A DNA stretch of 64,000 nucleotides, taken from NCBI GenBank assembly GCA_014695345.1, contig JACJOC010000049.1, forward strand, positions 310,001 to 374,000, in the 5' to 3' direction. Positions 39,969 to 55,331 of the stretch are shown here, piece by piece; the first letter of the stretch is position 1; each line of letters begins with the position of its first letter. The stretch is from Cyanobacteria bacterium FACHB-471 (GTDB lineage Bacteria > Cyanobacteriota > Cyanobacteriia > Elainellales > Elainellaceae). The notes beneath the pieces were generated by a model. That model was given only the letters and a program-made list of their open reading frames with translations. It was not told the origin of the DNA and did no database searches. A program made the translations under genes and the position numbers.

Positions 39969-40152
39969 ATCGCCCGCGACAAACTGCCCGCAGCAGACGA
40001 TCGATCGCAAATCGCTCTTCCTCGCTAATAGACTCATCAAAAATAGCTGCCATTAACCCATAGCGATCCGCCAGCGTAATATTGCCAGACTCAGCGACGT
40101 GAGCGGTGAGATCTGATAGAGCAGTTGGCAGCAGAGAAGGAGCAACAGGCAT
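39934..40152 (-). CDS. Small conserved-looking cyanobacterial protein
   Basis: 72 residues: 'ITLADRYGLMAAIFDESISE' and 'EERFAIDRLLRAVCRGRFKL' form helices that look like a small DNA/protein-binding domain; the family appears widespread in cyanobacteria from memory, without known function. The end lies inside the 3' end of the ATPase gene (35-base overlap, opposite strand). Confidence 0.7.
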   Translation of the reverse strand: MPVAPSLLPTALSDLTAHVAESGNITLADRYGLMAAIFDESISEEERFAIDRLLRAVCRGRFKLVDELSVVM

Positions 40153-40364
40153 GAATGCGGCGAGATAACTCTGTATCTATAAGAATGCCTGATTAGGTAC
40201 AAATCCTCAGTGACTTTTCTGCAAAAAAAATGTGATCGCGATCACATTTTGCGGGAGACAAACGCCAGGTACCAAAATTCGCACTTTTCAAACCTCTTCC
40301 AAATGCTCAAAACTAGTCCTGATAAAGTTGAGGTGCAGCAAGTTTTCAGCAGTAGGATTGCGCT

Positions 40365-41156
40365 ATGCCAACAATGCCGACAATTTTAGCGCTCGATTTT
40401 GACGGGGTCGTTTGTGACGGGTTGATTGAGTACTTTCAAACGGCATGGCGAGCCTACGGCCGAATTTGGTCGCCTGCTGACACCATGCCGCCTCCGGGTT
40501 TAGCTGAACAGTTTTATCGCCTGCGCCCAGTGATTGAAACGGGCTGGGAAATGCCAGTGCTGTTGCGATCGCTCCTCCTCAACACGCCAGAAGACGAGAT
40601 CCTAGAGAATTGGCAGGCGATCGCCCAACGGCAAATCACCGAAGACAATCTCAACCCAAGTGAGATTGCGGACAGCGTCGATCAGGTTCGAGATGAATGG
40701 ATTGCAGTTGACCTGGAAGGCTGGCTGGCGCAACATCGCTTCTACCCGGGCATTACCTCGCTGCTCCAGCGCGTTCTAAAAAGTTCCATTCACCTCGCGA
40801 TTATCACGACGAAAGAAGGCAGATTTGTGCGTCAGCTTCTACAGCAACAGGGAATTGATCTGCCGACCGCTCAAATTTATGGCAAAGAGGTGAAACGACC
40901 AAAGGCTCAGACCTTGCGTACTCTACATCAGCAATTCAGCAGCAACACGGATCAACCCATTTCTATCTGGTTTGTAGAAGATCGGCTGAAAACGCTACAA
41001 ACTATCCAAAATCAGCCAGCTCTGAGCCACGTCAAGCTTTATTTGGCAGATTGGGGTTACAACACCGAAGCCGAACGGGCGATCGCCCATAAAGACACGC
41101 AAATCTCAGTTTTGTCCTTAAAAACGCTAGAAGAGGAATTTTTGGTCACTATGTAA
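40365..41156 (+). CDS. HAD-family hydrolase
   Basis: 263 residues (or 260 from ATG 40374). Motif I is 'LALDFDGVVCDG' with the nucleophile Asp; motif II is in 'LAIITTKEGRFVRQLL' (Thr); motif III Lys in 'YGKEVKRPKAQTLRTL'; motif IV acidic in 'IWFVEDRLKTLQ'. It probably dephosphorylates a small metabolite in the cytosol. The substrate is unknown. The leader region (40153-40364) carries nothing specific. Stands alone. Confidence 0.85.
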   Translation: MPTMPTILALDFDGVVCDGLIEYFQTAWRAYGRIWSPADTMPPPGLAEQFYRLRPVIETGWEMPVLLRSLLLNTPEDEILENWQAIAQRQITEDNLNPSEIADSVDQVRDEWIAVDLEGWLAQHRFYPGITSLLQRVLKSSIHLAIITTKEGRFVRQLLQQQGIDLPTAQIYGKEVKRPKAQTLRTLHQQFSSNTDQPISIWFVEDRLKTLQTIQNQPALSHVKLYLADWGYNTEAERAIAHKDTQISVLSLKTLEEEFLVTM

Positions 41157-41479
41157 GCAACTTTCGCGACTTACACATGCAGACGCTTTGCAGAGCTTTG
41201 CTTCTTGAGCTAGATTATCCCTCAAGCGAAGCAAGCCTCTCAACTCAGAATTTGATCAGAGTCTATGCATTTCTTGTTTTCCATCAAAAATCTTAAATTA
41301 GTATTAAAATGCTTCACATAGTGTTGTGTTTCTAGTGGTGAATTGATTTACAGTCTCAATCCATCTTCACAAACACACGAGCCATGTCTTCATGAAGGTG
41401 CCAGATAGCCGCCTACGTGAGTGCCTCGTCAGATCCTCTCTAGAGCATTCCCTGATCAGTCACTTTTCTGCTGAAGAGT
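41157..41479. other. Intergenic region upstream of receiver protein
   Basis: 323 bases without supported genes. It likely contains the receiver-gene promoter. No tandem repeat, tRNA or clear terminator was seen. Confidence 0.4.
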
Positions 41480-41908
41480 ATGGACCTAGAATTACCTTTT
41501 GCCTCCGGACCTAACTGTGTGGCTAACCGGCCGCTAATCTTGGCTGTTGATGACAATGAAGACAACTTGCTGATGCTGCTGCATGCTCTCGATCTGTTTG
41601 GGTTCTCTAGCATTAGTACGCTAAAGGGGCAAGCCGCTTTGCCGCTGGCTCAGGCTTATCAGCCAGACTTAATCCTGATGGATATTGTCTTGCCAGACCT
41701 CAGTGGGTTAGAGATTATTCGCCAGCTCAAACAGACCGTTGAGACAGCTCACATTCCGATAATTGCGGTTACGGCTCTCGCGAGAGCAGAGGATCGCGAG
41801 AGCATTCTACAAACAGGCTGTGAAGACTATATCTACAAGCCTTACAACCTTGACGAACTGGAGGTTATGCTTCAGCAACATCTAAGTCGTATGCGGTCTG
41901 TTTCTTAA
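41480..41908 (+). CDS. Single-domain response regulator
   Basis: 142 residues, a stand-alone receiver (REC) domain. The acidic pocket is D24/D25 ('LAVDDNEDNLL'), the phosphorylated Asp is D68 in 'PDLILMDIVLPDLSG', and Lys in 'YIYKPYNLDEL' is conserved. It has no output domain, as in CheY-like signal carriers, so it could receive phosphate from an unlinked kinase; the nearest histidine kinase in the window is 15 kb away. It stands upstream of the PAS/GAF sensory genes and overlaps the convergent DUF2294 gene by 44 bases. Confidence 0.9.
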   Translation: MDLELPFASGPNCVANRPLILAVDDNEDNLLMLLHALDLFGFSSISTLKGQAALPLAQAYQPDLILMDIVLPDLSGLEIIRQLKQTVETAHIPIIAVTALARAEDRESILQTGCEDYIYKPYNLDELEVMLQQHLSRMRSVS

Positions 41909-42302
41909 GCTTCGTCTTAGCAGAAGGCTCTCGAACTTGAGGCTCTGCTTCTAGGATTGCGATCATCCCCGTTCGCCCGGTTTCCAACTTGGCATCACTT
42001 AGCAAATCAGCCACACTAACCCCTAGCACCTCTTCAATCAGCTCGGTTAGCTGTGGCTGAAGCGCCTTATCCAGATCAAAGTGAACCTGCTCGGCTAAAG
42101 CTTCTCGACCTGTACTAGACAAAAGTTGCTCAGCCTGAGTAATTGCCTCTTCCAGTACAATCATCAGCTTTTCACCCAAAATGTTGCAGGTGACTTTGTT
42201 GGGACGGTGCCCAAGTTGAGTTCGATACAGCGCTTGAATTCGCTGAGAAAGGGTTCTCTCAAGCTGACCACGAGTCGGATCAGGACTTTGCGAAGACTGC
42301 AT
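41865..42302 (-). CDS. DUF2294 domain protein
   Basis: 145 residues. It carries the DUF2294 core: 'LSQRIQALYRTQLGHRPNKV' near the N-terminus and 'CNILGEKLMIVLEEAITQAE' after it, then 'LTELIEEVLGVSVADLLSDA'. DUF2294 proteins occur in cyanobacteria and Gram-positive bacteria without a known biochemical role. The charged C-terminal tail ('KTKLKKQTAYDLDVAEA') overlaps the receiver gene by 44 bases on the other strand. A leader of 465 bases separates it from the next gene. Confidence 0.8.
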   Translation of the reverse strand: MQSSQSPDPTRGQLERTLSQRIQALYRTQLGHRPNKVTCNILGEKLMIVLEEAITQAEQLLSSTGREALAEQVHFDLDKALQPQLTELIEEVLGVSVADLLSDAKLETGRTGMIAILEAEPQVREPSAKTKLKKQTAYDLDVAEA

Positions 42303-42500
42303 AGACTAAAAATTTTAAGGAGGTGAAAGGATATGAGGGGGTGAAAATTATCTACCCGTAAGTTTAAGAATCTTCAACGTAGCTAATTTTTATTAATATA
42401 CTGCAAAAGGTCATGACCTCAAACATAGACCTCTTAAAATCACTTTTGAGAGAAGTTTTGAGCGATTCACTGCTTCAGACAATGCTTTCGCAAACTCATG

Positions 42501-42525
42501 CTATTCACGAAGTCCTATTCACGAA
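42501..42525. repeat. 11-bp direct repeat with 14-base period
   Basis: CTATTCACGAA occurs at 42501-42511 and again at 42515-42525, separated by GTC. It lies in the 465-base gap between DUF2294 and the acidic secreted protein, upstream of the 17-bp repeats. Confidence 0.7.
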
Positions 42526-42626
42526 TTAGATCAGACTGTTATAGTAAGGCTGCTACCCTGAAATAGATTTCTAGCCGTTATCCTGATTCTTGACTCCTCT
42601 GGGTGTATTAGTAGTTGACTTCATAA

Positions 42627-42677
42627 AGAATTGATTTCCGGAATGAATTGATTTCTGGAGTGAATTGAATTCTGAAA
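42627..42677. repeat. Three degenerate 17-bp tandem repeats
   Basis: AGAATTGATTTCCGGAA (42627), TGAATTGATTTCTGGAG (42644) and TGAATTGAATTCTGAAA (42661) follow each other without gaps. They lie about 90 bases before the acidic secreted-protein gene and look like iteron-type binding sites; a regulatory role is inferred only from the position. Confidence 0.7.
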
Positions 42678-42767
42678 GTTTAGACCGACAACAGTTTGTG
42701 ATGTTTGCTCCATGCTGAATGTCTCTCTAGCATAAGAACGCCGCCTTTTATCTGTTGAATTCAGACT

Positions 42768-43619
42768 ATGCGTGTTTCAACAACTGCGTTTTATACCCTG
42801 GCTGCCCTGATCGCTGGAGATTTGACTCAGCAAGCGATCGCTAAGCCCGTTTCTACTGCGACTCCAGAGCGTCCTGAGGCGAGCGACATTGAAAGTGCCG
42901 CAGAGCTGTCGTTGCCAAGCTCAATTAATGCAGTCACTCCACCCGAACAACTGCAAGCGATCGCCTTTGCCGAAGCCGTCCTCACCCAATATTCAGAGGA
43001 ATATACCCGCGAACTAACGGGAGTCAGCATAGAAGATGCGGCTGTAGCAGTTCCAGCGGACAGTAGCCCTACAGAAGCTGAGTTTGCTGCAATTGAAGTA
43101 CTTGCAACAATGCCAGCCCCCGAAATTATGGGGGTTGAGCATAGTGCACATTACAGTGCATATTACCTGGACAACTCAGCAGAAAGTTTTGAGGTAGACC
43201 CACAAGCCGATTCTCCAGCAGATCTGCTGGTAGAAGATGAAGCATCTTCTACAGAAGAGTTAGCGTTTGATCTGGCTAGCTTCAGCACCTATCAAGAGGC
43301 AGCCGTTGCGCCACCTGAAGCAATCACCACGCCAGAGCGAATGGCAGAGTTCGTCCCGAAAGCGATCGAAGCGATCGCCACGCCGGAATTCTTCATGCCA
43401 GAACGCTCTGAACAGCTATTCAACGATATCGAGGCTCCGGTCAACGTCCTGCTTCCCAGCACACTCTCTTCTGAGAGTACTCAAACCTATGCTCTCAACG
43501 ACTTAGAGGAAGATGAAGACCTCTGGATTCAAGCAATGATTGAGGCTGAGTTCGCTGAGCAAGCACCCTCTGTAGACTGGGTTGCGGTAGATCCAGCGTT
43601 CGAGGTCATGCAAGCGTAG
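42768..43619 (+). CDS. Acidic secreted protein of unknown function
   Basis: 283 residues. The N-terminus ('MRVSTTAFYTLAALIAGD') looks like a weak signal with possible cleavage near 'AIAKP'. The rest is strongly acidic and rich in Ala/Glu/Pro/Ser ('ELSLPSSINAV', 'EDEDLWIQAMIEAEF'), with almost no Lys after the start and no recognised domain. It is probably extracytoplasmic and disordered. A double hairpin with a T-run follows, confirming an isolated transcript. Confidence 0.65.
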   Translation: MRVSTTAFYTLAALIAGDLTQQAIAKPVSTATPERPEASDIESAAELSLPSSINAVTPPEQLQAIAFAEAVLTQYSEEYTRELTGVSIEDAAVAVPADSSPTEAEFAAIEVLATMPAPEIMGVEHSAHYSAYYLDNSAESFEVDPQADSPADLLVEDEASSTEELAFDLASFSTYQEAAVAPPEAITTPERMAEFVPKAIEAIATPEFFMPERSEQLFNDIEAPVNVLLPSTLSSESTQTYALNDLEEDEDLWIQAMIEAEFAEQAPSVDWVAVDPAFEVMQA

Positions 43620-43725
43620 CGATCGCAGACACTCCTACAGCCATTTACTTAGGGTTGGGCTAGTTCTTCAACCCCTTTGCTCCTTCCTAACCTTCGTTAA
43701 AAAGACGGCAGCCCGCCGTCTAGTT

Positions 43726-43750
43726 CCCCTTTTTAAGAGGGGATTTTTTA
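43726..43750 (+). terminator. Terminator of the acidic secreted-protein gene
   Basis: CCCCTTTTTAAGAGGGGATTTTTTA: a short stem followed by six T. It is preceded at 43703-43721 by another stem (AGACGGC / GCCGTCT), forming a tandem pair. Confidence 0.8.
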
Positions 43751-44274
43751 TATCTACAAAAAACAAATGCATCAAAGAGTAAAATTAATTTTTAGTAGAA
43801 GCAAATTCGTATAGTCCACTTAAGTTGCGATTCTATATAGAACGACTTACATAAAGCTCAAAAAAGTTAGGGAATCGCGAAATTCTGCGAATAAGCCAGC
43901 TATTTTGCGATCTTAAGGATAAGCTTGTAAAAACATTCAGCTGATATTTCTCAAATGGCACAGCAGTTAGGGTTTCTTTAAGTAGTTTTCCAAAACCACA
44001 TAATCCAATTCCGTAACAATACGGTTGAGCCAAATCCTCAAGCGCTGATAGAAATACGTAATATGCCGTTGCGCGGTTTCCTGCCACAGGCGCTAACATC
44101 ATAGTTTCGCTGTGTCGAGGTTGCTCCGCGTGACTAGGAGTGCATCGCAGGACAATCCCATTACCCAGTTTATTCAAGCTAGCTTTTAATCAAACAGCTT
44201 TGCAGAATAGGGCAAATTTTTGGGTACGAGCATCAGCATTTTCACGAGTCGTTGAGTAATCCTCGATACATTAT
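43751..44274. other. AT-rich intergenic region before RHH-PAS gene
   Basis: About 520 bases. A minus-strand frame (43833-44177) is present but does not look like a real protein. I see no clear regulatory repeats. The + strand start at 44275 has no obvious ribosome site. Confidence 0.4.
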
Positions 44275-46332
44275 ATGGCTAGTAAAACGATCACCTTTCG
44301 GTTGCCAGCAGAAGTAATCGAGGTTATCGAAAGTCAAGCTAGGGCAACCGGCAGAAACCGCACTGCCATTGTGATTGAAGCTCTAGCTCAAACTTACGGA
44401 CTTCAACCTCCTTCCCCAGCACCCGTCACCACTGAGATTCTTCAGCAGCAATTAGATGACTTGCAAGAGCAGGTAACAACTCTGTCACATCAGCTGGCAG
44501 AAGCAAACCAAAAATCTCTTACAAATAGCAATACTGCTGACCTGGTACAAGTGCTTGAGCAGGCAATTCGCTCTTTCCAAACCTTTAGCATTCAACCTTC
44601 TGAGGAGTTAGCAACTGGAAGCTGGTCGTCTCAAACTGCAGTTGAAACGTTACCCGATGACCCAAGTTGGCAAAAGCAAATTGTTGATGAGCAGTTGCAG
44701 CTTATCGCTCAACTTAAGCAACAGGCAAAAGCGCTTGACCAAATTCTTGCCGCTTCTCCCGGTTTAACCTGCGTCCAAGACCGGATGGGGCGCTGCACCT
44801 ATATCAATCCGGCGGGAGCCAGGATGCTTGGGTATGAGCAGAGCTATTTTCTGGGCAAAACGTTTCACGATCTAGGTTTGTCTGCTGAGATGATGGAGCT
44901 GCTGGTCAAGAAAGCCGAAGCAATCTTTACCGGGGGTCGTCCCTTAAGTGGTGAGTTTGCAACAGTTGTTCCATCGGGTTCTAAAAACTATGAATACGCA
45001 CTAAACCCAATTCATGGAGTAAACGGCACCATTGATGCGGTGATCTGTACCGCTTGGGAAATTACCGAGCGGAAGAAAGCCGAAATTGCCTTGCGGGAGT
45101 CCGAAGAGAAGTATCGCAACTTGTTTGAGTTGGCGAATGATTCTATCTTCATCATTGACGTGTCTACGGGTAGCATTCTCAATGCAAATCGCAATGCGGC
45201 TCGTCGGTTGGGCTACACTCGGCGGGAACTGTTGCAACTCACTCTGACAGAGATTGAAACACCAGAGGCGACTACGAGCCGGGAAGCTAAGATTGTGCCT
45301 GAGCTTCAGCGGACAGGCAATGTTATTTTTGAGCACATCCTGCGGCACAAGAACGGTTCGGAACTTCCGGTTGAGATTAGCTGCCGATTAATTGAGTATG
45401 GCGATCGCCTCGTTTTCCAGAGTTTTGCGAGAGACATTACCGAGCGCAAACAGCTAGAGACAGCCCTAGAAGAGCGCGTCAAGCAGCGCACTGCGGAGTT
45501 GTCTCAGGTTAACGAGCTATTACAGCAGGAAATTGAAGAACATAAACAGACTGCTGCCGCCCGCGACGAGGGTGAGCAGCAGTTTAGCAATCTGGTCGAA
45601 ACCATGAGCGATGGGTTTCTGATTGCTGACCATCACAACATCTATACCTACGCCAACGATCGCATCTGCCAAATGTTGGGCTATGAGCGAGACGAAATTG
45701 TAGGTCACGAGAGCTTTAGCCTGATTTGCGAGGCAGACCATGAGATGTTGCGCGAGCAAATTGCTAGACGAATAAACGGCGAACGCAGCACGTATGAAAT
45801 TGCTTTTCGCCATAAAGCAGGGCATTCCGTTCACACGATTTTTTCGGCAACACCGATGCTCAGTGCTCAGGGGCAACACCAGGGCAGTTTTGGCGTTGTC
45901 ACGGATATTACAGAGCGAAAACAGGCAGAAGAGCAACTGCGAATCAGCGAAGAAGGGCTGCGGATGCTGATTCAAAATTTGCAGATTGGTGTGCTGATCC
46001 TCGGCAGCCAAACCGAAATCTTGTTCTGCAATCCGGCAGCCCTGCAACTTCTAGGACTCACCCAAGAGCAGCTTTTAGGTAAAACCTTTTTAGATCCTGA
46101 TTGGCAAGTTGTCTCAGAAGATGGTTCACCCTTGCCGAAGGAGGCTTTGCCTGTATCGCAGGCGATCGCCACTCGCCAACCGGTCCATGATGTCGTTGTT
46201 GGTGTCTACCGCCCTACCCACGATGACTGGATACAGCTCCTGGTAAATGCCGATCCACAGTTTGAAATAGACGGCTCGATCAGACAAGTCTTTTGTACGA
46301 TTAGTGACGTTAATGGTCGGGAGGAGGCTTAG
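44275..46332 (+). CDS. Ribbon-helix-helix plus four-PAS protein, no output kinase
   Basis: 685 residues. The N-terminal 43 residues read as a CopG/MetJ-like ribbon-helix-helix: a strand 'KTITFRLP' and helices 'AEVIEVIESQARATGR', 'NRTAIVIEALAQTYG'. A coiled coil (about 53-80) and a linker follow, then PAS1 (155-268), PAS2 (275-392), a coiled coil (393-430), PAS3 (432-550) and PAS4 (555-683), joined by 'DITERK'-type PAC ends. There is no HisKA, GGDEF, EAL or HAMP, and no membrane helix. The natural reading is a one-component DNA-binding sensor, unlike the usual kinase arrangement. Convergent with the GAF chemoreceptor (39 bases between ends). Paralogous to 51238-53325. Confidence 0.85.
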   Translation: MASKTITFRLPAEVIEVIESQARATGRNRTAIVIEALAQTYGLQPPSPAPVTTEILQQQLDDLQEQVTTLSHQLAEANQKSLTNSNTADLVQVLEQAIRSFQTFSIQPSEELATGSWSSQTAVETLPDDPSWQKQIVDEQLQLIAQLKQQAKALDQILAASPGLTCVQDRMGRCTYINPAGARMLGYEQSYFLGKTFHDLGLSAEMMELLVKKAEAIFTGGRPLSGEFATVVPSGSKNYEYALNPIHGVNGTIDAVICTAWEITERKKAEIALRESEEKYRNLFELANDSIFIIDVSTGSILNANRNAARRLGYTRRELLQLTLTEIETPEATTSREAKIVPELQRTGNVIFEHILRHKNGSELPVEISCRLIEYGDRLVFQSFARDITERKQLETALEERVKQRTAELSQVNELLQQEIEEHKQTAAARDEGEQQFSNLVETMSDGFLIADHHNIYTYANDRICQMLGYERDEIVGHESFSLICEADHEMLREQIARRINGERSTYEIAFRHKAGHSVHTIFSATPMLSAQGQHQGSFGVVTDITERKQAEEQLRISEEGLRMLIQNLQIGVLILGSQTEILFCNPAALQLLGLTQEQLLGKTFLDPDWQVVSEDGSPLPKEALPVSQAIATRQPVHDVVVGVYRPTHDDWIQLLVNADPQFEIDGSIRQVFCTISDVNGREEA

Positions 46333-46371
46333 AGATTAAAGGGCACAGCCTGCTGACTTCAATTTTCCCCA

Positions 46372-49300
46372 TTACAGGGGCAACGTAATTTCCTCATCGA
46401 CATCTTCTTTAGAGCTAACCTTGAACGTTTCTACAGAAATCTGCAACTCTTTGGCTATGCTTACAGTTCGTTGCAGTGCCTCGGAGACCTGACGGGAGCG
46501 ATCGGAAGTTTGTTTTGACTCTTGCGCGACTTCCCGGATCAGTCCTGTGATTAGCAAAGAGGTTTGAGTTTGGGATACGGTTGCCTCTGAAATGGTTTTC
46601 ACTAGCTGATTAATTTGATGAGAGACTTCCACGATCTCACTCAGGCTCACCCTGGCATCTTCGACTAAGCGAGTTCCTTCCACAACCTGTGAAGTGCTTT
46701 GTTCCATTGCTTCAACCACCTGATTGGTTTCTGCTTGGATTGCAGCGACGATTTCTTCAATGTCTCCAGTAGCCTTTGCCGATTGGGTCGCGAGTTCCCC
46801 CACTTCCTCTGCAACGATCGCAAATCCGCTTCCGTCTTCCCCGGCTCGTGCAGCCTCAATTCCGGCGTTAATCGCAAGTAGGTTAGTTTGCAAAGCGATT
46901 TTCTCAATCAAGGACACTACTTTAGAGATTTGTTGCGAAGCTTCACCCAGGCGCTTAATTTTTTTGGCTGTTGAGCCGATTGTGTCTCTTAAGCTGAGAA
47001 TGTTTTGCACCGTCAAATCCATCGCAGTTCCCCCTGCCTCGGCAGTTGCAGAAGCTTTGTCAGACACCTCAGCAGCCTGACGGGCGCTCTCAGCCACCGC
47101 TCGAATGGAGTGAGTCATTTGCTCAACTGAGTTTAAGGTATAGGACATTTCTTCAGCCTGCTGAAGCGCTGAGTCTGCAAGCTGGCGAATCGATCCTTCG
47201 CTTTCGGCGATCGCCTCACTCACCTGAACGGCAGACTGTTTCACCTGCGTCACGATTTGCCGCAAACTTTCCACAACTGAGTTAAAAAAGTCGGCGACAG
47301 TGCCAATTTCACCCGTAGTCACCTCTGCCCGAATCGTCAAATCACCCCTTGCTGCTGCCTCCACCTGATCGAGGAGGTGAAGCAAGTTATCCTGAAGTTC
47401 TTCTCGCTGCTGACGCTGTTCTCTGGCCAAGTTCTCTGCCTGCTGACGTGCCAGATCCAATTCTTCTAAAAAATTGACGCGATCGAGCGCAAGTCCTACC
47501 TGAGTAGCGACCTGCTTAAAAAAGACAATGTCTGACTCTTGCCAAGTGCGGGGAGCAGAACACTGATGCGTCACCAGCAAACCGTGCAGCCGACTATAAG
47601 CCAGAATCGGCGCGACCAAATTAGCCTTGACTTCAAAAGGTTCTAACTGTCCCAAATAACAGTCGCTCAAGCCTGCTTCATAAATGTTGTTAGTAGCTTT
47701 GACACGACCCGCAAGATATTTGCCAATGTATTTGTCGGCAAAGCAAGGATCAGCGATGTTCGCGCCCAGTGCTTGGGGAAAGCCTCTGTTGACGGATTCT
47801 GCAACGACGTGTCCTTGCCAATCCTTATCAAAGAGATAAACGATCGCCCGCTCAGTTTTCAGGCTCTCTCGCACCCCTGCAATAGCAGTGTTGTAAATCT
47901 CCTCAACATCAGCAGCCATGCCGATTGCAGAGGCAATTTCGCTGAGCTTTTGGGCGCGGTAAAGCGCCATATCTTTTTGAGCTAAATAGTTCATCCGATC
48001 GAGAGCAATCCCGACCTGACTGGCAATCTGCTTGAAGAAGGTAATTTCTGGCTCTTGCCACGCTCGCGCCGTAGAACATTGATGAGTGACGAGTAACCCG
48101 TGCAGCTTGTCATAAGCCAAGATGGGAGCAACCAGATTTGCTTTGACGGCAAAAGGCTCTAGCTGTCCTAAATAGCAGTCACTCAATCCGGCTTCGTAAA
48201 TATTGTTGGTTGCCTGGACCTGCCCTGCCAGGTACTTATCAAGGTATTTCTCAGCAAAGCAAGGGTCGGCAATGTTAACACCCAAGGCTTTAGGAAAGCC
48301 TGCCCCGACGACTTCAGCAACGATGGTTCCTTGCCAATTTTCATCAAACAAGTAGACGACAGCCCGATCGGTTTTTAGGGCTTCCCGTATGCCAGCGATC
48401 GCACATTGATAAACTTCCCCAATGCTCACTGCATTGGCGATCGCTCCTGTAATTTCGCTAAGCTGCTGGTTTCGCAAGATAGCGCCATCTTTTTGAATGA
48501 GCAGAACAACTCGATCAATCGCCAGCCCAAGTTGGAGAGCTAGCTGTTGTAAAAAGTCAATTTCTGGCTGCTGCCAAATGTGAGGAGCGGCGCAGTGATG
48601 GGCGACCAGCAACCCGTAAAGTTCGCCGTCGCGAAGGATAGGCGTAACCAGGTTGGCTTTGACCTTAAGTTGCTCCATCAGCCTGAGATGATCGGGGTGA
48701 AAGCCTGCTTCATAAACATTGTTAGTCGCGACAACCCGTCCTTTTCGGTAAGCCTCGATTAGCTCCTGTCCAATGCAAGCATCTTCAATTTTGCCTCCCA
48801 TAACGCGAGGATAATTTGCATCGACCGCCTCGGCTGAAATGTAGCCGCTCCAGTTGGGTAAAAAACGATAGATGACCACCCGATCCGCTTTTAGGATCTG
48901 TTGCGCCCCCTGTACGGCTGTCTTAAACAACGTCTCCAAGTCTTGCAGCGTGCGCGTTTCAGAGGCAGCAACAGTGCTAAAAAATTGGGCTTGTTGAATA
49001 AAAAACTGGGCTTGTTCAATTTCACTCGCCTGACGACGAATTTGCTCCGTCATGGCAATTTCTGAAGTCGTTATCTGCTCTGCCAGTCGGTTGAAGGTGT
49101 GAGCAAGCTGTCCAACTTCGTCTTTTCCAGAGGCATCTGCCCGAATGGTGCGATCGCCCTCCAAAAATTGATGGGTGGATTGCTGTAGCTGCTTCAGGGA
49201 TACCGCAGTCGTTTTTCTCCGCACAACTACTAGCCCCAACCCAACCCCCAAGGCAGCAGTGGCGATCGCCAATAGCCCCAACCCCCACAACATCGTGGTA

Positions 49301-49872
49301 TTGGAGGAGGTGCCCGGCGTTTCCCGAACAACTACAGCAGATGCTTCCGCTTCAGAATCCGGCAAAGCCTGAACTGCGATCGCCTGCAAATCTTGTCCAA
49401 TTAGCGTAGAAAACTCTACCCCAAAATTTGAAACCTGCTCTTGTGAAGCTTGATCAACCTGTTGCTGCATTTCAGGGTGAGACAATTGTCCCGTTTGTCG
49501 AGCTCTAGCCGCTGTGACTACACTCGTGTCTTCAGCCTGGTCCTGGACATAAGCTTTTAACAAATTTGTTTGGACGCTGTATTCAGTCTCCGTCACAACT
49601 AGTTCGGCCCTAGCCTGACCCGCCCCTGCCGAAACCAGCAAAGCTGTTCCTACCCCTGCCAAACCAACTGTGGAAATTTCAGCCATCAGCATTCCAATTA
49701 ACTGTTTATGGCTAACCGAAAGATCCTGAAATTTCTTAGGCAAAGCTTCAGGTTTACGTTGCTCTGATGCTAAGTCAAACTGAACTATAGACTCCGAAGG
49801 CTTTAGTTGAAATTGTGACTGACGTTGCGCTTGTGAATTAGCGGCTGGATCAGAGTGAGATTGAGTGGCCAT
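46372..49872 (-). CDS. Methyl-accepting chemoreceptor with three GAF domains (PixJ/TaxD1-like)
   Basis: 1166 residues from ATG 49872; an in-frame start at 49932 adds 20. Order: membrane helices near 60-85 and 193-218 around a periplasmic loop, HAMP (about 220-270), GAF1 (about 305-455), GAF2 (475-640), GAF3 (645-815), a second HAMP-like segment (845-890) and the MCP signalling helix with tip '[20 protein letters not shown]'. GAF2 and GAF3 carry the cyanobacteriochrome DXCF signature as DPCF (C538, C710), plus a Cys at the usual chromophore position, followed by Tyr rather than His (C566, C738, '[13 protein letters not shown]'). GAF1 has no such Cys. A light-responsive taxis receptor is the likely role; CheW/CheA are not in the window. 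Confidence 0.9.
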
Positions 49873-50022
49873 AGCTCGGTTCCCGGAGGGTAGTAAATGA
49901 GTGTGAAAAGCCCGTGCAAAATAAAATCGCAACGTGAAAAGAGCGCAAAAGCTTGCGTAGGGAGAAATGAAAACGTTTAAGGAATTGCAAGACGAGTTAA
50001 CGGCGTAAATCTACGCAAACTC

Positions 50023-50358
50023 TTATGACATAGACTCTTTTGAGTCCTCCAACGCTGATACTGAGTCTTCTGAACTCGATAACACACAACTGCAAGCAAA
50101 TCTTGCTGCCTCCGAACCCGCTCCACTTAAGACAGCTACGCTAGCAACTCCTCCTACCGCTTTGGCAGCTTTAGCCATTTCTACTGTCACCTGGAGGACA
50201 CAGGCATCAACATCTTTTTCAAACTCCGGGTTGGGTTCAGGATGGTCAGACTTCCAACTTTCTGCCAGGAAAAGAGCCATCTTTCTCAACGCCCGTCTGA
50301 GATTAGGGCTTGTTAAGCAGGTAGATTGACTGCTGGAATTAAGCAGTTTCAGTCCCAT
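50023..50358 (-). CDS. Small protein of unknown function upstream of chemoreceptor
   Basis: 111 residues. ATG 50358 has GGAG 9 bases upstream. There is a helical N-terminal half ('NLRRALRKMALFLAESWKSD') and a middle part with Cys, Gly and Ala ('AKAAKAVGGVASVAVLSGAG'); the tail is Ser/Asp/Glu-rich. No recognised domain. It lies on the same strand as the chemoreceptor, 150 bases before it, so a link is possible but unproven. A short random frame cannot be ruled out. Confidence 0.45.
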   Translation of the reverse strand: MGLKLLNSSSQSTCLTSPNLRRALRKMALFLAESWKSDHPEPNPEFEKDVDACVLQVTVEMAKAAKAVGGVASVAVLSGAGSEAARFACSCVLSSSEDSVSALEDSKESMS

Positions 50359-51237
50359 AGGGGCTTCTCCAAAATTGCGAAATGAACTCATAGGGTTGAG
50401 ATCCAACAACTTCGTATTTGAAATAGCGCACAGAAATAGCTCCTAAAACCGCACTGCTCTCTAGCCACATCAAGCAATGCTTTAGCTATCTGTATTAGTA
50501 AGCCGTATTAACAAGTACCAAGAGAAGAAGATTTCTTTTGCCTATCAGAAATCAGTCCCTACTTAGGAGACAAATCAATCTGTCCAGGCTCAATGCCCAT
50601 ACACACGACTTAGATGAAGAGTCTGGTGGTGTACCCTGTCTACTTAGACACTGGTACAAAGATGCAGCCTACGGTTTGCCTCAAGCAACCGCTATATTTC
50701 TGTTGGTAATGCACCTAATTTTTGAAGCGCAATTCAAGCAGTTTGAGTTTTCATTAAAGATCAACAAAACCCCACTCTATCTTTACAAAGCGGCTAATTA
50801 AGCATGTTAAATCAAGCCAAACTTGATTAAATAAACCCTATTTCCAGGTGGATGACCGTTAGCAAGATAAAGGGCAGGAACTTAAGCGATACGAAACGCA
50901 CAACCAACTGCAATACGGGCTGTTAAAGTAATTGCAAGCGCTTAATTAGCTGCTCTATAACTTTGCAATACGTGTGTTGCACTCTATTAATAATCTTTTA
51001 CCTGTAAGGTTTTTGCAATAGCATTAGACAAGCTTTATAAACCTTTCATGAACTGCTCCATTTTACTTAAAATAAAAATTATTCTAGATTCTCCGAAAGG
51101 ATTGCTCAACTTGGGTTGGAAGTGAGATAATTGTGTTGAGGAAAGGTGTATCAGTGTGTGGCGACACAAGCATAGCAACATAACGACCCATCAAGTGTCT
51201 GGCAATACAAAGTTCAGCCAGATAGCGCAGTGTTACC
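50359..51237. other. Long intergenic region between chemoreceptor and RHH-PAS genes
   Basis: 879 bases with only one small low-quality frame (50538-50801). It is AT-rich; GCAATACG-type short motifs recur around 50913 and 50967 (TGCAATACGGG, TGCAATACGTG), which could be a regulator site. Promoters of the flanking divergent genes must be inside. Confidence 0.45.
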
Positions 51238-53325
51238 ATGACCTACACCTCAATTACAATTCAACTTCCAGAAGCACTGAGTCAAGCGATCGCCGCCCGT
51301 GCAAACGCCGATCAAATCGGTGAAAATTCATTAATTCTAAATGTTCTCGCTGATGCTTTTGGGATTTCTCCCTCAATTTCTCCTGCTATTTCTGAGGCTA
51401 TCCAGCCACAACGGACTCAGCTAGAGGAGCAAATTGCAGAGCTGATCGGTCAATTGACTGAGATGCAGACGAGCGATCGCTTGAGTCTAACAAACCTACG
51501 CCAAATTGCGGATCTTAAGCAGGTCGTTGATTCACTGCTAGAAACAGAGCGTTCAGTTCTTGCACCCTCCCCAGAGTCTCCTGAAGACAGCTCACCTAGC
51601 CAACGATTACAGCAACAATCCGCTGACCTGGCAACACTCATCACAGAACACAACAGTCAGCAAGCGATCGTCTTAAACCAAATTCTCTCGGGAATACCCG
51701 ACCTGATCTTTGTGCAAGATCGACTAGGTCGCTACACCTACGTTAACCCCGCTGGGGCACGCGCCTTTGAGTGCGAGCGCAACTACTTAATTGGTAAAAC
51801 CTGCGAAGATTTGCATCTTTCGGCTGACCTTACCACTCTCCTCAACAACCAGCATCGTCAAGTTTTCATCAGCGGTCAGCCGCTCAGCGGCGAAATCACA
51901 ATTCCGACAACCACTGCATCTCGGGACTACGAATACATATTCAATCCAATTCGGGGGATGCAAGGCGACATCAGCACAGCCGTTTTTGTAGCCAGAGACA
52001 TCACCGAGCGTAAACAGACAGAAATTGCACTGCGAGAATCAGAAGAAAAATACCGCAACTTATTCGAATCTGCCACTGACTCAATTTTTATCGTTGACGC
52101 TGTAACCCATGAACTTCTAGAGGTAAACTGGGTCGCGTCGATTCTGCTAGGTTATACCCGGCGAGAGCTATTTTCGATTCCCTTCAGTGAAATTAGCTTG
52201 CCCCTAGATGCTGCGCGTCGGGCATCTCTCCTGCGAGACCTGGAAAATTTTGGCAGCATCGTATTTGAGCATGTCTACCGCTGTAAAGACGGCAGGGAAA
52301 TTCCTGTTGAAGTTAGCAGCCGCGTGATTGAGTACGAAAACCGGCTCGCCATTCTGAATTTCGTTCGCGATATTACTGCCCGTAAACGAGCTGAAACCTA
52401 CCTGCGTGAGAGTGAAGAAAAACTGCGAATTGCTCTCGAGGCAGCCCAACTAGGAATCTGGGATACCGAATTGACCACCGGTCGCATCACCTGGTCGCCC
52501 AACCTGGAAACAATGTTTGGTTTTGTGCCTGGAGAGTTTGATGGCAGCTATGAAACTTTCTTGAGTCACCTACATCCTAACGATCGAGACTATGTTCAAC
52601 AGGCAGTGAGCACTGCAATCAAGCGCCAGGAAGATTATGACATCGAGTTTCGAGTCGTCTGGTCTAATGGCACTGTCCGCTGGATTGCTAGTAAAGGAAA
52701 AGCTTTTTATAACGAAGCAGGCAAACCCATTCGGATGGCTGGCATCAACCTCGACATTACCAATCGCAAGAGGGCAGAGGAGTTAATTCACAAGTCCCAT
52801 CAAGAATTTGCTCAACAGTCAACCGAGCTAGACAGGATCGATCGCGAGATCCTCAATTCTAGTCAAGCCTTATCGGACGAACCAGATGAAAACTCTCCAT
52901 TGTCATCCCTGAAAGCGATCTGGAAATCAGTCGAGATTCAGCGACGGCGTTATCGCGATCTTTTTAATGCTGTATTCGACATTTACCTGGTGGTTAACTC
53001 ATCTGGAGTCATTCAGGAAGCAAGTCAAGCAGCTACTGTTTTATTTGCCAGTAAATTAGATGGGTTAGTGGGCACAGCTTGTTATCGATTAGTTTTCGAG
53101 CAAGATCGCCCAGCGCTAAAAGCCCAGTTTGACGAGCTTAGACAGGTGAAGCAACCTGGAGTTTTGGAGTTAAAGTTCCAACCCCTAAAAGGCAACTCTT
53201 TCTCAGCTCGGATTACTATCTCAGCCGCTTATAGCAGTACAGAAGAGGTCATCAGCTTTTGCCTGCTAATTCAAGGGGCATCGATTCGGGAATTGAACGG
53301 CACGGAAAACGCGTCTATCAATTAA
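51238..53325 (+). CDS. RHH-like plus four-PAS protein, paralogue
   Basis: 695 residues with the same plan as 44275-46332. A short strand-helix-helix N-terminus ('TSITIQLPEALSQAIAARAN', 'ENSLILNVLADAFGISP') is followed by a coiled coil (about 57-75), PAS1 (145-262), PAS2 (267-385), PAS3 (390-510, with the 'GRITWSPNLETMFGF' form), a helical linker and PAS4 (570-685). No kinase or cyclase domain. PAS1 and PAS2 resemble those of the other protein ('VNPAGAR', 'KYRNLFE'), while the last PAS differs, so the pair arose by duplication and then diverged. Its RHH is less canonical than that of its paralogue. It is downstream of a long AT-rich region. Confidence 0.82.
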   Translation: MTYTSITIQLPEALSQAIAARANADQIGENSLILNVLADAFGISPSISPAISEAIQPQRTQLEEQIAELIGQLTEMQTSDRLSLTNLRQIADLKQVVDSLLETERSVLAPSPESPEDSSPSQRLQQQSADLATLITEHNSQQAIVLNQILSGIPDLIFVQDRLGRYTYVNPAGARAFECERNYLIGKTCEDLHLSADLTTLLNNQHRQVFISGQPLSGEITIPTTTASRDYEYIFNPIRGMQGDISTAVFVARDITERKQTEIALRESEEKYRNLFESATDSIFIVDAVTHELLEVNWVASILLGYTRRELFSIPFSEISLPLDAARRASLLRDLENFGSIVFEHVYRCKDGREIPVEVSSRVIEYENRLAILNFVRDITARKRAETYLRESEEKLRIALEAAQLGIWDTELTTGRITWSPNLETMFGFVPGEFDGSYETFLSHLHPNDRDYVQQAVSTAIKRQEDYDIEFRVVWSNGTVRWIASKGKAFYNEAGKPIRMAGINLDITNRKRAEELIHKSHQEFAQQSTELDRIDREILNSSQALSDEPDENSPLSSLKAIWKSVEIQRRRYRDLFNAVFDIYLVVNSSGVIQEASQAATVLFASKLDGLVGTACYRLVFEQDRPALKAQFDELRQVKQPGVLELKFQPLKGNSFSARITISAAYSSTEEVISFCLLIQGASIRELNGTENASIN

Positions 53326-53345
53326 ACCTTTTATACATTCCGGTT

Positions 53346-54062
53346 TCAGTAAATAATGGTGCCTTCGTAGTTAAAGCCTTCTGGCAGCGTCGCAAACTCT
53401 AGTTGAGCATTGGTCAGGTCAGCACCCTCTAAGTTGGCGTTAGACAAGTCGGCATAGCGCAAATCAGACCCACTCAAGTTGGTACCTGATAGATCAGCAT
53501 CCCGCAATACCGCTCCGTATAGGCTGGCTTCACTTAAATCGGCTTGGCTAATCTGAGTGGCGCTGAGGTCAGCATCTCGCAGCTCTGCCCCATGAAGATT
53601 TACGCCGTTCAGGTTTGCTCTAGACATGCTGACGTGCATCATCTGAGCTTCAGTTAAATTGGCTCCACTTAGGTCTGCTCCCTGGAGGTCAGCACCATCT
53701 AGAGTGGCTCGTTCGAGGTTAGCCTGGTTTAGCAGAGTACCGGTCAGGATCGCGTTGGTTAGTTTGGTTTGGCTCAGGTTTGCATTAGAAAGGTCTGCTT
53801 CAGTTAAATTTACGCGGCTTAGATCATTACCACTCAGGTTGGCTCCGCTCAAATTACAGCGAATGCAGTCGCCTGTTTGCAGCGTTTTTTCAACCTCGCT
53901 TGATCGAGGTTCTGAGGCGGGGGGAGAACTCACAGTTAAGGTTTCAACCCCTACAGGCTGACTAGTGTCAGGTGGGGCAGTAAGAATTCTGGCAAACCGG
54001 ATAGTGACGGGAGAAACTGCTGCCAACAGGGCTACACAGCCTAAAACGAGCTTGACGTTCAT
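53346..54062 (-). CDS. Pentapeptide-repeat protein
   Basis: 238 residues. An N-terminal hydrophobic stretch ('VKLVLGCVALLAAVSPVTIRF') suggests a signal or membrane anchor. From about residue 68 there are more than 25 units of A(D/N)LXX type ('GANLSGNDLSRVNLTEADLS'). These fold into a right-handed quadrilateral beta-helix. Such proteins are abundant in cyanobacteria; functions range from topoisomerase protection to envelope roles, and nothing here decides. Location: the periplasm or thylakoid lumen is likely. Convergent with the RHH-PAS gene (20 bases). Confidence 0.9.
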   Translation of the reverse strand: MNVKLVLGCVALLAAVSPVTIRFARILTAPPDTSQPVGVETLTVSSPPASEPRSSEVEKTLQTGDCIRCNLSGANLSGNDLSRVNLTEADLSNANLSQTKLTNAILTGTLLNQANLERATLDGADLQGADLSGANLTEAQMMHVSMSRANLNGVNLHGAELRDADLSATQISQADLSEASLYGAVLRDADLSGTNLSGSDLRYADLSNANLEGADLTNAQLEFATLPEGFNYEGTIIY

Positions 54063-54183
54063 AGTCTTGCAGAGGTTGAAAGAAAAACACGCTCACAGGC
54101 AGTATTCTCCTCATTTCTACCGAGTCCGGACTCACCCCTTAAAGCTTGCGTAAATTGAGAGTTACACCAATTCCAAAAATTAG

Positions 54184-54236
54184 GGCGACAGATGGAAGGG
54201 CACCCCACTCTGCGGGATGCCCTTCCATCTGTCGCC
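54184..54236. terminator. 19-bp perfect stem plus inner CCC/GGG
   Basis: GGCGACAGATGGAAGGGCA (54184-54202) pairs exactly with 54218-54236; one mismatch, three more G-C pairs and the loop ACTCTGC complete it. It is downstream of the PRC-barrel gene on the minus strand and upstream of the pentapeptide gene. Confidence 0.6.
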
Positions 54237-54265
54237 TCTTTTAAGAGAAACGTTATTAGAAAGAA

Positions 54266-54297
54266 TTACAGGGACGAAATGCATCTCGTCCCTGTAA
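54266..54297 (-). terminator. Palindrome of the CAGGGACGA family, terminator-like
   Basis: TTACAGGGACGA pairs with TCGTCCCTGTAA (12 bp, 8-base loop). On the minus strand TTCTTTCTAA follows. It is the first hairpin after the PRC-barrel gene, and related to the palindrome at 10905-10934. Confidence 0.6.
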
Positions 54298-54326
54298 GAG
54301 AATTTAATGTTACCTGACAGACTAAC

Positions 54327-55331
54327 TTAATAGTCTGCTTCTTCTTCGTACTCTACGACTTTCCGCTTTTCAGAAATATTAATTTGCGGTGGACGGTAGG
54401 GTTTGGGATTTTCATCGTCTGCCCACGCATCTTCTAGAACTTCGTCGTATTGCTGCTCTAGACGTTTAGGTTCGCGGTAGGTAGGCTGCTCGATGTAAAC
54501 TGCCTCGGTGTACTCTTCTTCTGTCTGTCCACCCCAGTTATCCTCTTCTACATCGTCGTCGTAGTAAGCAGGTTCAGGCTGACGCTGACGCAGCGGTTCA
54601 CGCAATTGACGGGCAGCGGGCTGAGCTTCGCTCCAGTTGTCATCGTCCCAGGTTTCACGGGCAATCGGAGCTTCTAGCCGGACTGAAGGGGCAGCAGAGG
54701 TACGTGCTCCTGTTCCTAGCTGGTTGGAGGCGGAGGTTGGCATGACGTAGTAGTCTTCATCCTCGTCTCGATCCCAGGGCGGTTTGCCAATACCCAGACG
54801 CTCTAGGACACCCACCGTGAGCTGGTTCATTTTTTCTTCAGCACCCTCAAACACGATGAGGCGATCGGGACCACTACTGACGACCTCGTCAATCGACAGC
54901 TCGTAGGTGCTAATCACCTGATCGGGAATCATGGGAAGACCGATAGACGCAATGATCAGAGAGACAACTCTGCCGTCGTAGGTGTTGAACTTGAAACCTC
55001 GAACTTTGCCTAGAAGCTCGCCCGTTTCAGTGATAACTTCGCTGTTAATCAGAGCACTGTAGGCTTCTGCGTTGAATGCATCTTCTAGAACGGTTTCATC
55101 ATCAACCAGAATGACATCGCCAATTTGACGAATGCTGTCAAGGAGCATCATTTGCTGCGTACTGGACAGCACCCCAGACAGCATACTTTCTCTTAAGCCG
55201 AGGGCGACGACCTCTCGGCGATCGATATCCACCCAAAGCTGACTGATTACCCCCAAGCGCTTACCCGTGCTGCGGGTAATGACTTGAGTGCCTAAAAGGT
55301 CGGAACGTTGACAGAGTTGTTCAGATGTCAT
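54327..55331 (-). CDS. Double PRC-barrel protein
   Basis: 334 residues. Two PRC-barrel-like halves (about 1-80, 'LLGTQVITRSTGKRLGVISQ'; 85-170, 'INSEVITETGELLGKVRG') are followed by an acidic, Arg/Pro/Tyr-rich disordered region (about 195-334, 'DRDEDEDYYVMP'). PRC-barrels adapt RNA-processing or photosynthetic complexes. No signal peptide. The gene is next to smc on the same strand (92 bases), so a shared operon is possible; an SMC-linked role is inference only. Two hairpins follow it. Confidence 0.85.
   Translation of the reverse strand: MTSEQLCQRSDLLGTQVITRSTGKRLGVISQLWVDIDRREVVALGLRESMLSGVLSSTQQMMLLDSIRQIGDVILVDDETVLEDAFNAEAYSALINSEVITETGELLGKVRGFKFNTYDGRVVSLIIASIGLPMIPDQVISTYELSIDEVVSSGPDRLIVFEGAEEKMNQLTVGVLERLGIGKPPWDRDEDEDYYVMPTSASNQLGTGARTSAAPSVRLEAPIARETWDDDNWSEAQPAARQLREPLRQRQPEPAYYDDDVEEDNWGGQTEEEYTEAVYIEQPTYREPKRLEQQYDEVLEDAWADDENPKPYRPPQINISEKRKVVEYEEEADY

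Follow-up and report, generated by a model that had tools for sequence, protein, structure and literature searches.

The window analysed here is a stretch of 64,000 nucleotides from Cyanobacteria bacterium FACHB-471 (contig JACJOC010000049.1, positions 310,001 to 374,000), and our subject is a pair of genes within it, whose products we call A and B. A first reading made from the letters alone (the sequence-only reading) had described both proteins as a ribbon-helix-helix (RHH) N-terminus followed by a coiled coil and four PAS domains, and had proposed that they are signal-responsive regulators that bind DNA directly. Open reading frame (ORF) and domain scans confirmed two ORFs at 44275-46332 (685 aa) and 51238-53325 (695 aa), each of which carries four PAS domains with nothing after them. 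Between the two, on the opposite strand, lie a chemoreceptor gene and a small gene, giving the order A, chemoreceptor and small gene, B, with A tail-to-tail with the chemoreceptor gene. The features are as follows, in window positions.

44275..46332, plus strand: protein A, RHH, coiled coil and four PAS domains, 685 aa, no C-terminal output domain (ORF and domain scans)
44275..44409, plus strand: RHH domain of A, residues 1-45, strand SKTITFRLP, loop ATGRNRT (Pfam, PDB profile, model, and the ratio of nonsynonymous to synonymous substitution rates, dN/dS)
44431..44523, plus strand: predicted helix or coiled coil of A, residues 53-83 (AlphaFold2)
44722..46314, plus strand: four PAS domains of A, about residues 150-265, 275-395, 436-550 and 562-680 (domain scans; limits approximate)
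46372..49932, minus strand: PixJ-like chemoreceptor with HAMP, three GAF domains and an MCP signalling domain; GAF2 and GAF3 with DPCF and CY (CH in relatives) (Pfam, PDB search)
50023..50409, minus strand: small gene ahead of the chemoreceptor gene, 128 codons, conserved family without a Pfam match (homologue comparison)
50909..50917, minus strand: further exact half-site CGTATTGCA near the palindrome (palindrome scan)
50964..50981, no strand assigned: palindrome TGCAATACGTGTGTTGCA, 18 bp, putative operator between the small gene and B (intergenic comparison, leave-one-out matrices)
51238..53325, plus strand: protein B, degenerate RHH, helix and four PAS domains, 695 aa, divergent from the small gene (ORF and domain scans, dN/dS, tree)

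RHH-PAS proteins and the divergence of B

The N-terminal RHH domain held up well for protein A. The Pfam profile RHH_1 (PF01402) matched its residues 6-39 with E = 5e-4 and 20.3 bits (curated cut-off 20.5), and a PDB profile search with nine N-termini picked out the repressor Mnt (E = 0.0016), along with two chains of the CopG family (E about 0.02). In the AlphaFold2 monomer of A, helices were predicted at residues 12-25 and 29-41, followed by a long one spanning 53-83; block pLDDT (predicted local distance difference test) was 76-89 over residues 1-40. The first stretch is extended, yet no strand was called in the monomer. A structural aligner placed this N-terminus beside PutA, Arc, CopG, NikR, omega and AmrZ (Z 3.8-5.7, mostly over ~40-50 residues), most of which we take to be RHH proteins. 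A plain Foldseek search with the A N-terminus gave no E below 0.17. The recognition strand of A reads K-T-x-T-x-R and its turn TGRNRT, so that the polar strand residues and the basic turn are both present; Arg9, Thr or Ser at position 7 and at least one basic turn residue are kept in all A-type members listed. Between the window genome and the relative G002, the one genome pair from which all dN/dS values here derive, over short stretches, the RHH of A showed dN/dS = 0.018, indicating strong constraint. A chance look-alike of an RHH in A is ruled out by the subfamily matches given below, the PDB profile, the dN/dS value and the fold matches.

Behind this domain, the PAS profile TIGR00229 scored above its curated cut-off in both A (E = 1.5e-77) and B (E = 1.4e-53), on four stretches each, and a domain scan behind the last PAS of A and of B found nothing. 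No ACT domain of the NikR kind was detected in A by the Pfam scan, and PAS alone follows the RHH.

The genome comparison covered 388 genomes of the cyanobacterial class, of which G000 is the window genome. When the RHH subfamily was counted as matches of at least 57 bits to an RHH-coiled coil profile, 33 matches were obtained in 18 genomes; a 47-bit second copy in G303 was added to these. In 17 of these 18 genomes, or 17/388, at least one copy of the RHH is followed by a complete or partial PAS domain, which is the order across genomes that the sequence-only reading had suggested looking for. Relatives with family members include Leptolyngbyaceae cyanobacterium SM1_4_3, Stenomitos frigidus ULC18, Tildeniella nuda and Oculatella sp. 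LEGE 06141. The sole subfamily protein of G019 is a 126-aa RHH alone; in G017 the RHH and PAS parts lie in different frames, and in G312 the contig stops within PAS1. The RHH-coiled coil-PAS core is conserved across genera, and members carry one PAS domain (283 aa; G104, G157 and G308), two, three, four (window and G002) or at least nine (the second copy of G303, 1433 aa). In G308, G157 and G104 (L049, L050 and L056) the gene ends at the same point, where PAS1 finishes (EANY), and the next 600 bases show no long frame for PAS2.

A Pfam scan for output domains took 16 RHH-PAS members and left out those of G308, G312, G017 and G364. PAS was found in 16/16, and HisKA or other kinase domains, GGDEF and EAL in 0/16, in agreement with the expectation that homologues would not belong to a kinase chain. 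A kinase chain with a missed C-terminus was found in none of the 16; it could still exist in G364:C1427, which leaves its contig after 570 aa. Genome G364 (loci L080-L087, L057 and L060) has eleven RHH profile matches, several of which are short RHH-coiled coil proteins without PAS. The RHH N-terminus had no match on plasmids or phages at E<=0.001. A literature search for RHH or CopG with PAS, of partial coverage, gave no RHH-PAS protein in titles or abstract openings.

Protein B tells a different story at its N-terminus, where the proposed RHH stands on weaker evidence. Over ~120 aa this region shares 33% identity with that of A (E about 1e-7 to 3e-8), and Pfam found no RHH in it at E<=1. Its model is RHH-like with RHH structural matches but weaker (block pLDDT 57-75 over residues 1-40), and was built on an alignment in which 10 of 11 rows were A-type. 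The recognition-strand Arg is replaced by Gln in B and its relatives (ITIQLP, ITLQLP, ISLQLP), and the basic residues of the turn (DQIGEN) are lost in the window genome and G002. With one basic residue and four acidic ones, residues 1-45 of B do not present a basic recognition strand and turn. The dN/dS of B was 0.256 in the RHH and 0.40 in the helix or coiled-coil region versus 0.03-0.05 in PAS1-2, so that in this genome pair the N-terminal part stands at 5-13x its own PAS1-2 core.

When a tree was built from the PAS1-PAS2 core, the RHH-less PAS proteins of G005 and G023 fell into one group with B of G000, G002 and G303 (support 81/90; 76% of bootstrap trees), and G303 B grouped with the RHH-less G005/G023 pair with support 96/91. 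Homologues without the N-terminus therefore exist in the B lineage and were not seen among A-type genes. Multi-PAS proteins with neither RHH nor output domain also lie near RHH-PAS genes at L044:1280-6160 and L047:8881-10434. A gene of the A type and one of the B lineage share a locus in G000, G303, G005 and G023; in G002 the two occupy separate contigs, both of which hold a piece of the chemoreceptor gene. Because of the dN/dS contrast, the Gln-for-Arg change and the RHH-less proteins within the B clade, we conclude that the B lineage loses or degrades the RHH and that A keeps it. B is a paralogue of A whose RHH decayed under relaxed constraint while its PAS domains stayed, and is best read as a weakly or non-DNA-binding partner of A.

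A palindrome upstream of the small gene

Intergenic comparison of the window, G002, G303 and G321 brought out TGCAATACGTGTGTTGCA and variants of it. The consensus, TGYAANACNNGTNTTRCA, consists of two YGTNTTRCA half-sites. A one-mismatch search with TGCAAYRCGYGYRTTGCA found this locus as the only place in the window genome. The palindrome was tested in 13 small-gene upstream regions with leave-one-out matrices and shuffles; G309 was excluded for its weak small-gene match on a 4.4-kb contig where the chemoreceptor was not found. The site was present upstream of the small gene in 12/13 genomes, with shuffle p<=0.0035 in each and leave-one-out scores of 14.6-24.0 bits; the site set was seeded from G000, G002, G303 and G321 and then extended by best match, so that the test is not fully independent. 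The pattern is matched perfectly at the locus by only G000, G002, G259, G276 and G303, and the others of the 12 carry at least one mismatch. Variants include TGTAAGACATGTCTTACA in G276, TGTAAAACGTGTTTTACG in G282 and TGTAATACAGGTCTTACA in G259, and G364 has two sites in tandem. G013, the one genome without the site, has the small gene and the chemoreceptor and no RHH-PAS match.

Weaker sites were found in G005 and G023, which have RHH-PAS genes and no such operon (15.3 and 14.2 bits; p 0.0015 and 0.0025). They lie at the 5′ end of a 117-119 aa ORF that heads a cluster with an RHH-less PAS gene and an RHH-PAS gene. The offset of 34 bp used for G005 and G023 depends on chosen start points, as the ORFs first listed start further upstream and overlap the site; the first internal ATG is 37 bp (G005) or 34 bp (G023) past the site start. 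The ORF start is uncertain. A consensus-free palindrome scan of 15 regions ranked the site sole top in 7 and tied top in 5, and placed it outside the best three in G017, G005 and G023.

Proteins and sites may also covary. An AC..GT core was seen in 9/10 sites of proteins with T at the strand residue versus 0/6 of those with S (Fisher test, sites classed by eye). The S-type proteins form one clade in the tree except for G364c, and 4/6 S-type sites come from G364, so we regard the link between strand residue and core as suggestive only. Rfam gave no match at gathering score in 40000-55000, and none of three chance-level sigma-70 matches in the window overlaps the palindrome. G104 and G157 have a second palindrome (CGTAATACGCGTATTACC and a relative; L056:12329, L092:4157) ~650 bp past the first, and copies of TGCAAGACCCGTTTTACA at other places in G157, G229 and G276 (L113, L120, L122) may mark a further conserved site.

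The neighbouring genes recur with the family. The chemoreceptor adjoins the RHH-PAS gene in 11/17 genomes (G000, G002, G003, G017, G104, G259, G276, G282, G303, G308 and G364); its neighbourhood is cut by contig ends in G157 and G312, and no chemoreceptor lies beside the RHH-PAS gene in the DNA retrieved for G004, G005, G022 and G023. The small gene heads the chemoreceptor in 9 of these 11, the exceptions being G003, which has none, and G308, where the contig begins at the chemoreceptor. The two genes presumably form one transcript. Small genes were found in 14/388 genomes, 11 of them within the 18 RHH-subfamily genomes (expected 0.65; hypergeometric 1.7e-14, uncorrected for relatedness), and encode a family of ~113-128 aa with the motif AVGG...LTGGGSAAAR. 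G303 repeats the window order of A, chemoreceptor, small gene and B; there a response-regulator-like ORF separates A from the chemoreceptor, which is split over two frames.

The GAF domains of the window chemoreceptor had TePixJ (3vv4, E = 5e-41) as their best PDB match. DPCF with CH was found in 11/13 genomes compared and is missing in G000 and G003; in the window DPCF is present and Cys-Tyr replaces Cys-His, making chromophore binding uncertain. PixJ1, as described in the available part of PMC5812497, and TePixJ share the HAMP-GAF-MCP layout with this receptor, from which they differ in the Cys-His and in the small gene in front. Upstream of A, a lone response regulator (41480-41908, plus strand) and an MpsC/DUF2294 protein (41865-42302, minus strand) form a tail-to-tail overlapping pair, which also occurs in G002.

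Candidate binders and proposed regulation

We consider it probable that A is a one-component regulator that binds the palindrome and sets expression of the photoreceptor operon, with B as a modulating partner. Soluble A would bind DNA through its N-terminal RHH, as a dimer by analogy with the family, and its coiled coil would probably pair dimers, as that of Mnt does. The PAS domains may sense a cellular signal (redox, light or ligand) and thereby alter DNA binding. The likely operator of A is the palindrome TGYAANACNNGTNTTRCA upstream of the operon of the small gene and the PixJ-like chemoreceptor, and through it A would set the amount of receptor made by the cell. B, an old paralogue, most likely joins A by coiled-coil or PAS contacts and modulates it. 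DNA binding by A, its identity as the binder of the palindrome, the sign of regulation, the signal and the contact between A and B are all steps that we infer. As for the direct DNA-binding, PAS-sensing design claimed for both proteins, it is well supported for A by the conserved core, the lack of kinase, GGDEF and EAL domains in the 16 members and the palindrome, but doubtful for B in view of the Arg-to-Gln change, the dN/dS values and the RHH-less proteins in its clade. Binding upstream of both genes had also been proposed; this suits B, as the palindrome ends 256 bp before it, but not A, since no strong site was found in its promoter.

Several observations weigh against A acting at the palindrome. 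Its RHH_1 score is 0.2 bits below the Pfam cut-off, an RHH_1 match at E<=0.01 was obtained in just 4/16 scanned members, and RHH-less PAS homologues exist. Site and family do not always coincide: G321 has the site beside only a 66-codon B-like RHH frame; G003, with RHH-PAS and chemoreceptor and no small gene, has no site ahead of the chemoreceptor; G308 has none in the 423 bp up to its contig edge; and G004 and G022 have an RHH-PAS gene with no chemoreceptor operon alongside, the small gene and site of G022 being on another contig. None of 14 RHH-PAS promoters scanned exceeded 10.4 bits, versus 14.6-24.0 at the small gene, and the gene of A itself lacks a strong site; autoregulation of A through the same palindrome was rejected on these scores. 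The small gene lies at varying distances from the site (103-296 bp in 8/12, 493-572 in G002 and the window, 349 in G321 and 60-84 in G364). Perfect palindromes occur in 20/388 genomes versus 18/388 with a reversed control pattern, and genome-wide use of the perfect palindrome was rejected on this comparison. Finally, the co-occurrence of RHH-PAS and small genes rests on few, related genomes.

Another RHH protein, either TrcR-like or one of the short RHH-coiled coil proteins, might bind the palindrome instead, with A not acting there. According to the available part of PMC10272220, TrcR (All0854), an Anabaena RHH repressor, gives a footprint on ATACTACACTTGTATTAC. One half of that site, TGTATTAC, agrees with the palindrome half-site. 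TrcR-like genes were found in 16/19 genomes queried, and short proteins with a similar RHH occur in G000, G002, G003, G019 and G364. However, the TrcR half-sites are by eye 2 bp further apart than those of the palindrome, and the window genome has two separate TrcR-like RHH genes (L123:1103-1438 and L126:1559-1981), each behind a TrcR-type site of its own, the second of which (ATACTACACTTGTAGTAT) is palindromic save for two middle bases; the label TrcR-like rests on site and RHH, with no TrcR sequence compared. G013 has a TrcR-like gene and no palindrome; G022, G282 and G364 have the palindrome, and no TrcR-like gene was found in them, although these drafts are 78-91% complete and make the absence a weak one. 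From this contrast, in few draft genomes, the palindrome follows RHH-PAS rather than TrcR. Moreover, the RHH-PAS gene is the only subfamily match of at least 57 bits in G104, G157, G259, G276 and G282. We judge binding by such a protein in place of A to be unlikely. The part of PMC10272220 available describes TrcR as an RHH protein, with no mention of PAS.

Slightly less likely still, the RHH-coiled coil of A could be an oligomerisation module, A and B being PAS scaffolds for a separate kinase or a chemoreceptor array that do not bind DNA. The absence of an output domain, the tail-to-tail position of A and the chemoreceptor gene, the degenerate RHH of B and its RHH-less relatives would all suit such a role, but it does not account for the Arg9, Thr/Ser7 and basic turn residue kept in all A-types listed, for the dN/dS of 0.018, or for a conserved palindrome of RHH-like half-sites at the locus. 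That an unrelated regulator such as SufR binds the palindrome, or that it acts as an RNA hairpin or terminator, is very improbable: the G303 site reads CAAC-N6-GTTG, which fits the SufR motif, and was also called terminator-like, but CAAC/GTTG is missing from most sites, a terminator scan of the window alone does not call the palindrome, and the G005 site is nearer a direct repeat than a hairpin.

Returning to A as the regulator, its closest parallels share some of its parts and differ in others. NikR, whose chains are among the fold matches of A, is likewise a one-component protein with an N-terminal RHH and a C-terminal sensory domain; that domain is a nickel-binding ACT domain, whereas A has PAS repeats, a long coiled coil and no evidence of a metal site. 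Mnt, Arc and CopG share the RHH fold, Mnt being the best PDB profile match of the nine N-termini and resembling A in the coiled coil after the RHH, but have no sensor domain. PpsR/CrtJ fuse PAS directly to a DNA-binding domain, in their case a C-terminal helix-turn-helix; TIGR02040 matched A at the PAS level only (71 bits, cut-off 275). Lokiarchaeum Arc-type RHH-HisKA-REC proteins join an RHH to a signalling chain, with a kinase and receiver found in neither A nor B (PMC5847659, available part).

A further, tentative possibility is a two-protein PAS regulator, in which A keeps its RHH and binds the palindrome, and B, its RHH decaying or lost, joins A in a mixed oligomer as a second sensor or an antagonist, placing two PAS input sets on one operator for the amount of photoreceptor. 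If true, such a pair would represent an RHH-PAS class among one-component regulators. The role of multi-PAS proteins that lack an output domain is difficult to account for, and here the output would sit at the front, as the RHH. With an operator and a target predicted for the family, the idea can be tested directly. A cytosolic PAS sensor would then control the supply of a PixJ-like receptor, and the B lineage would show how a regulator can lose its DNA-binding head and keep its sensors.

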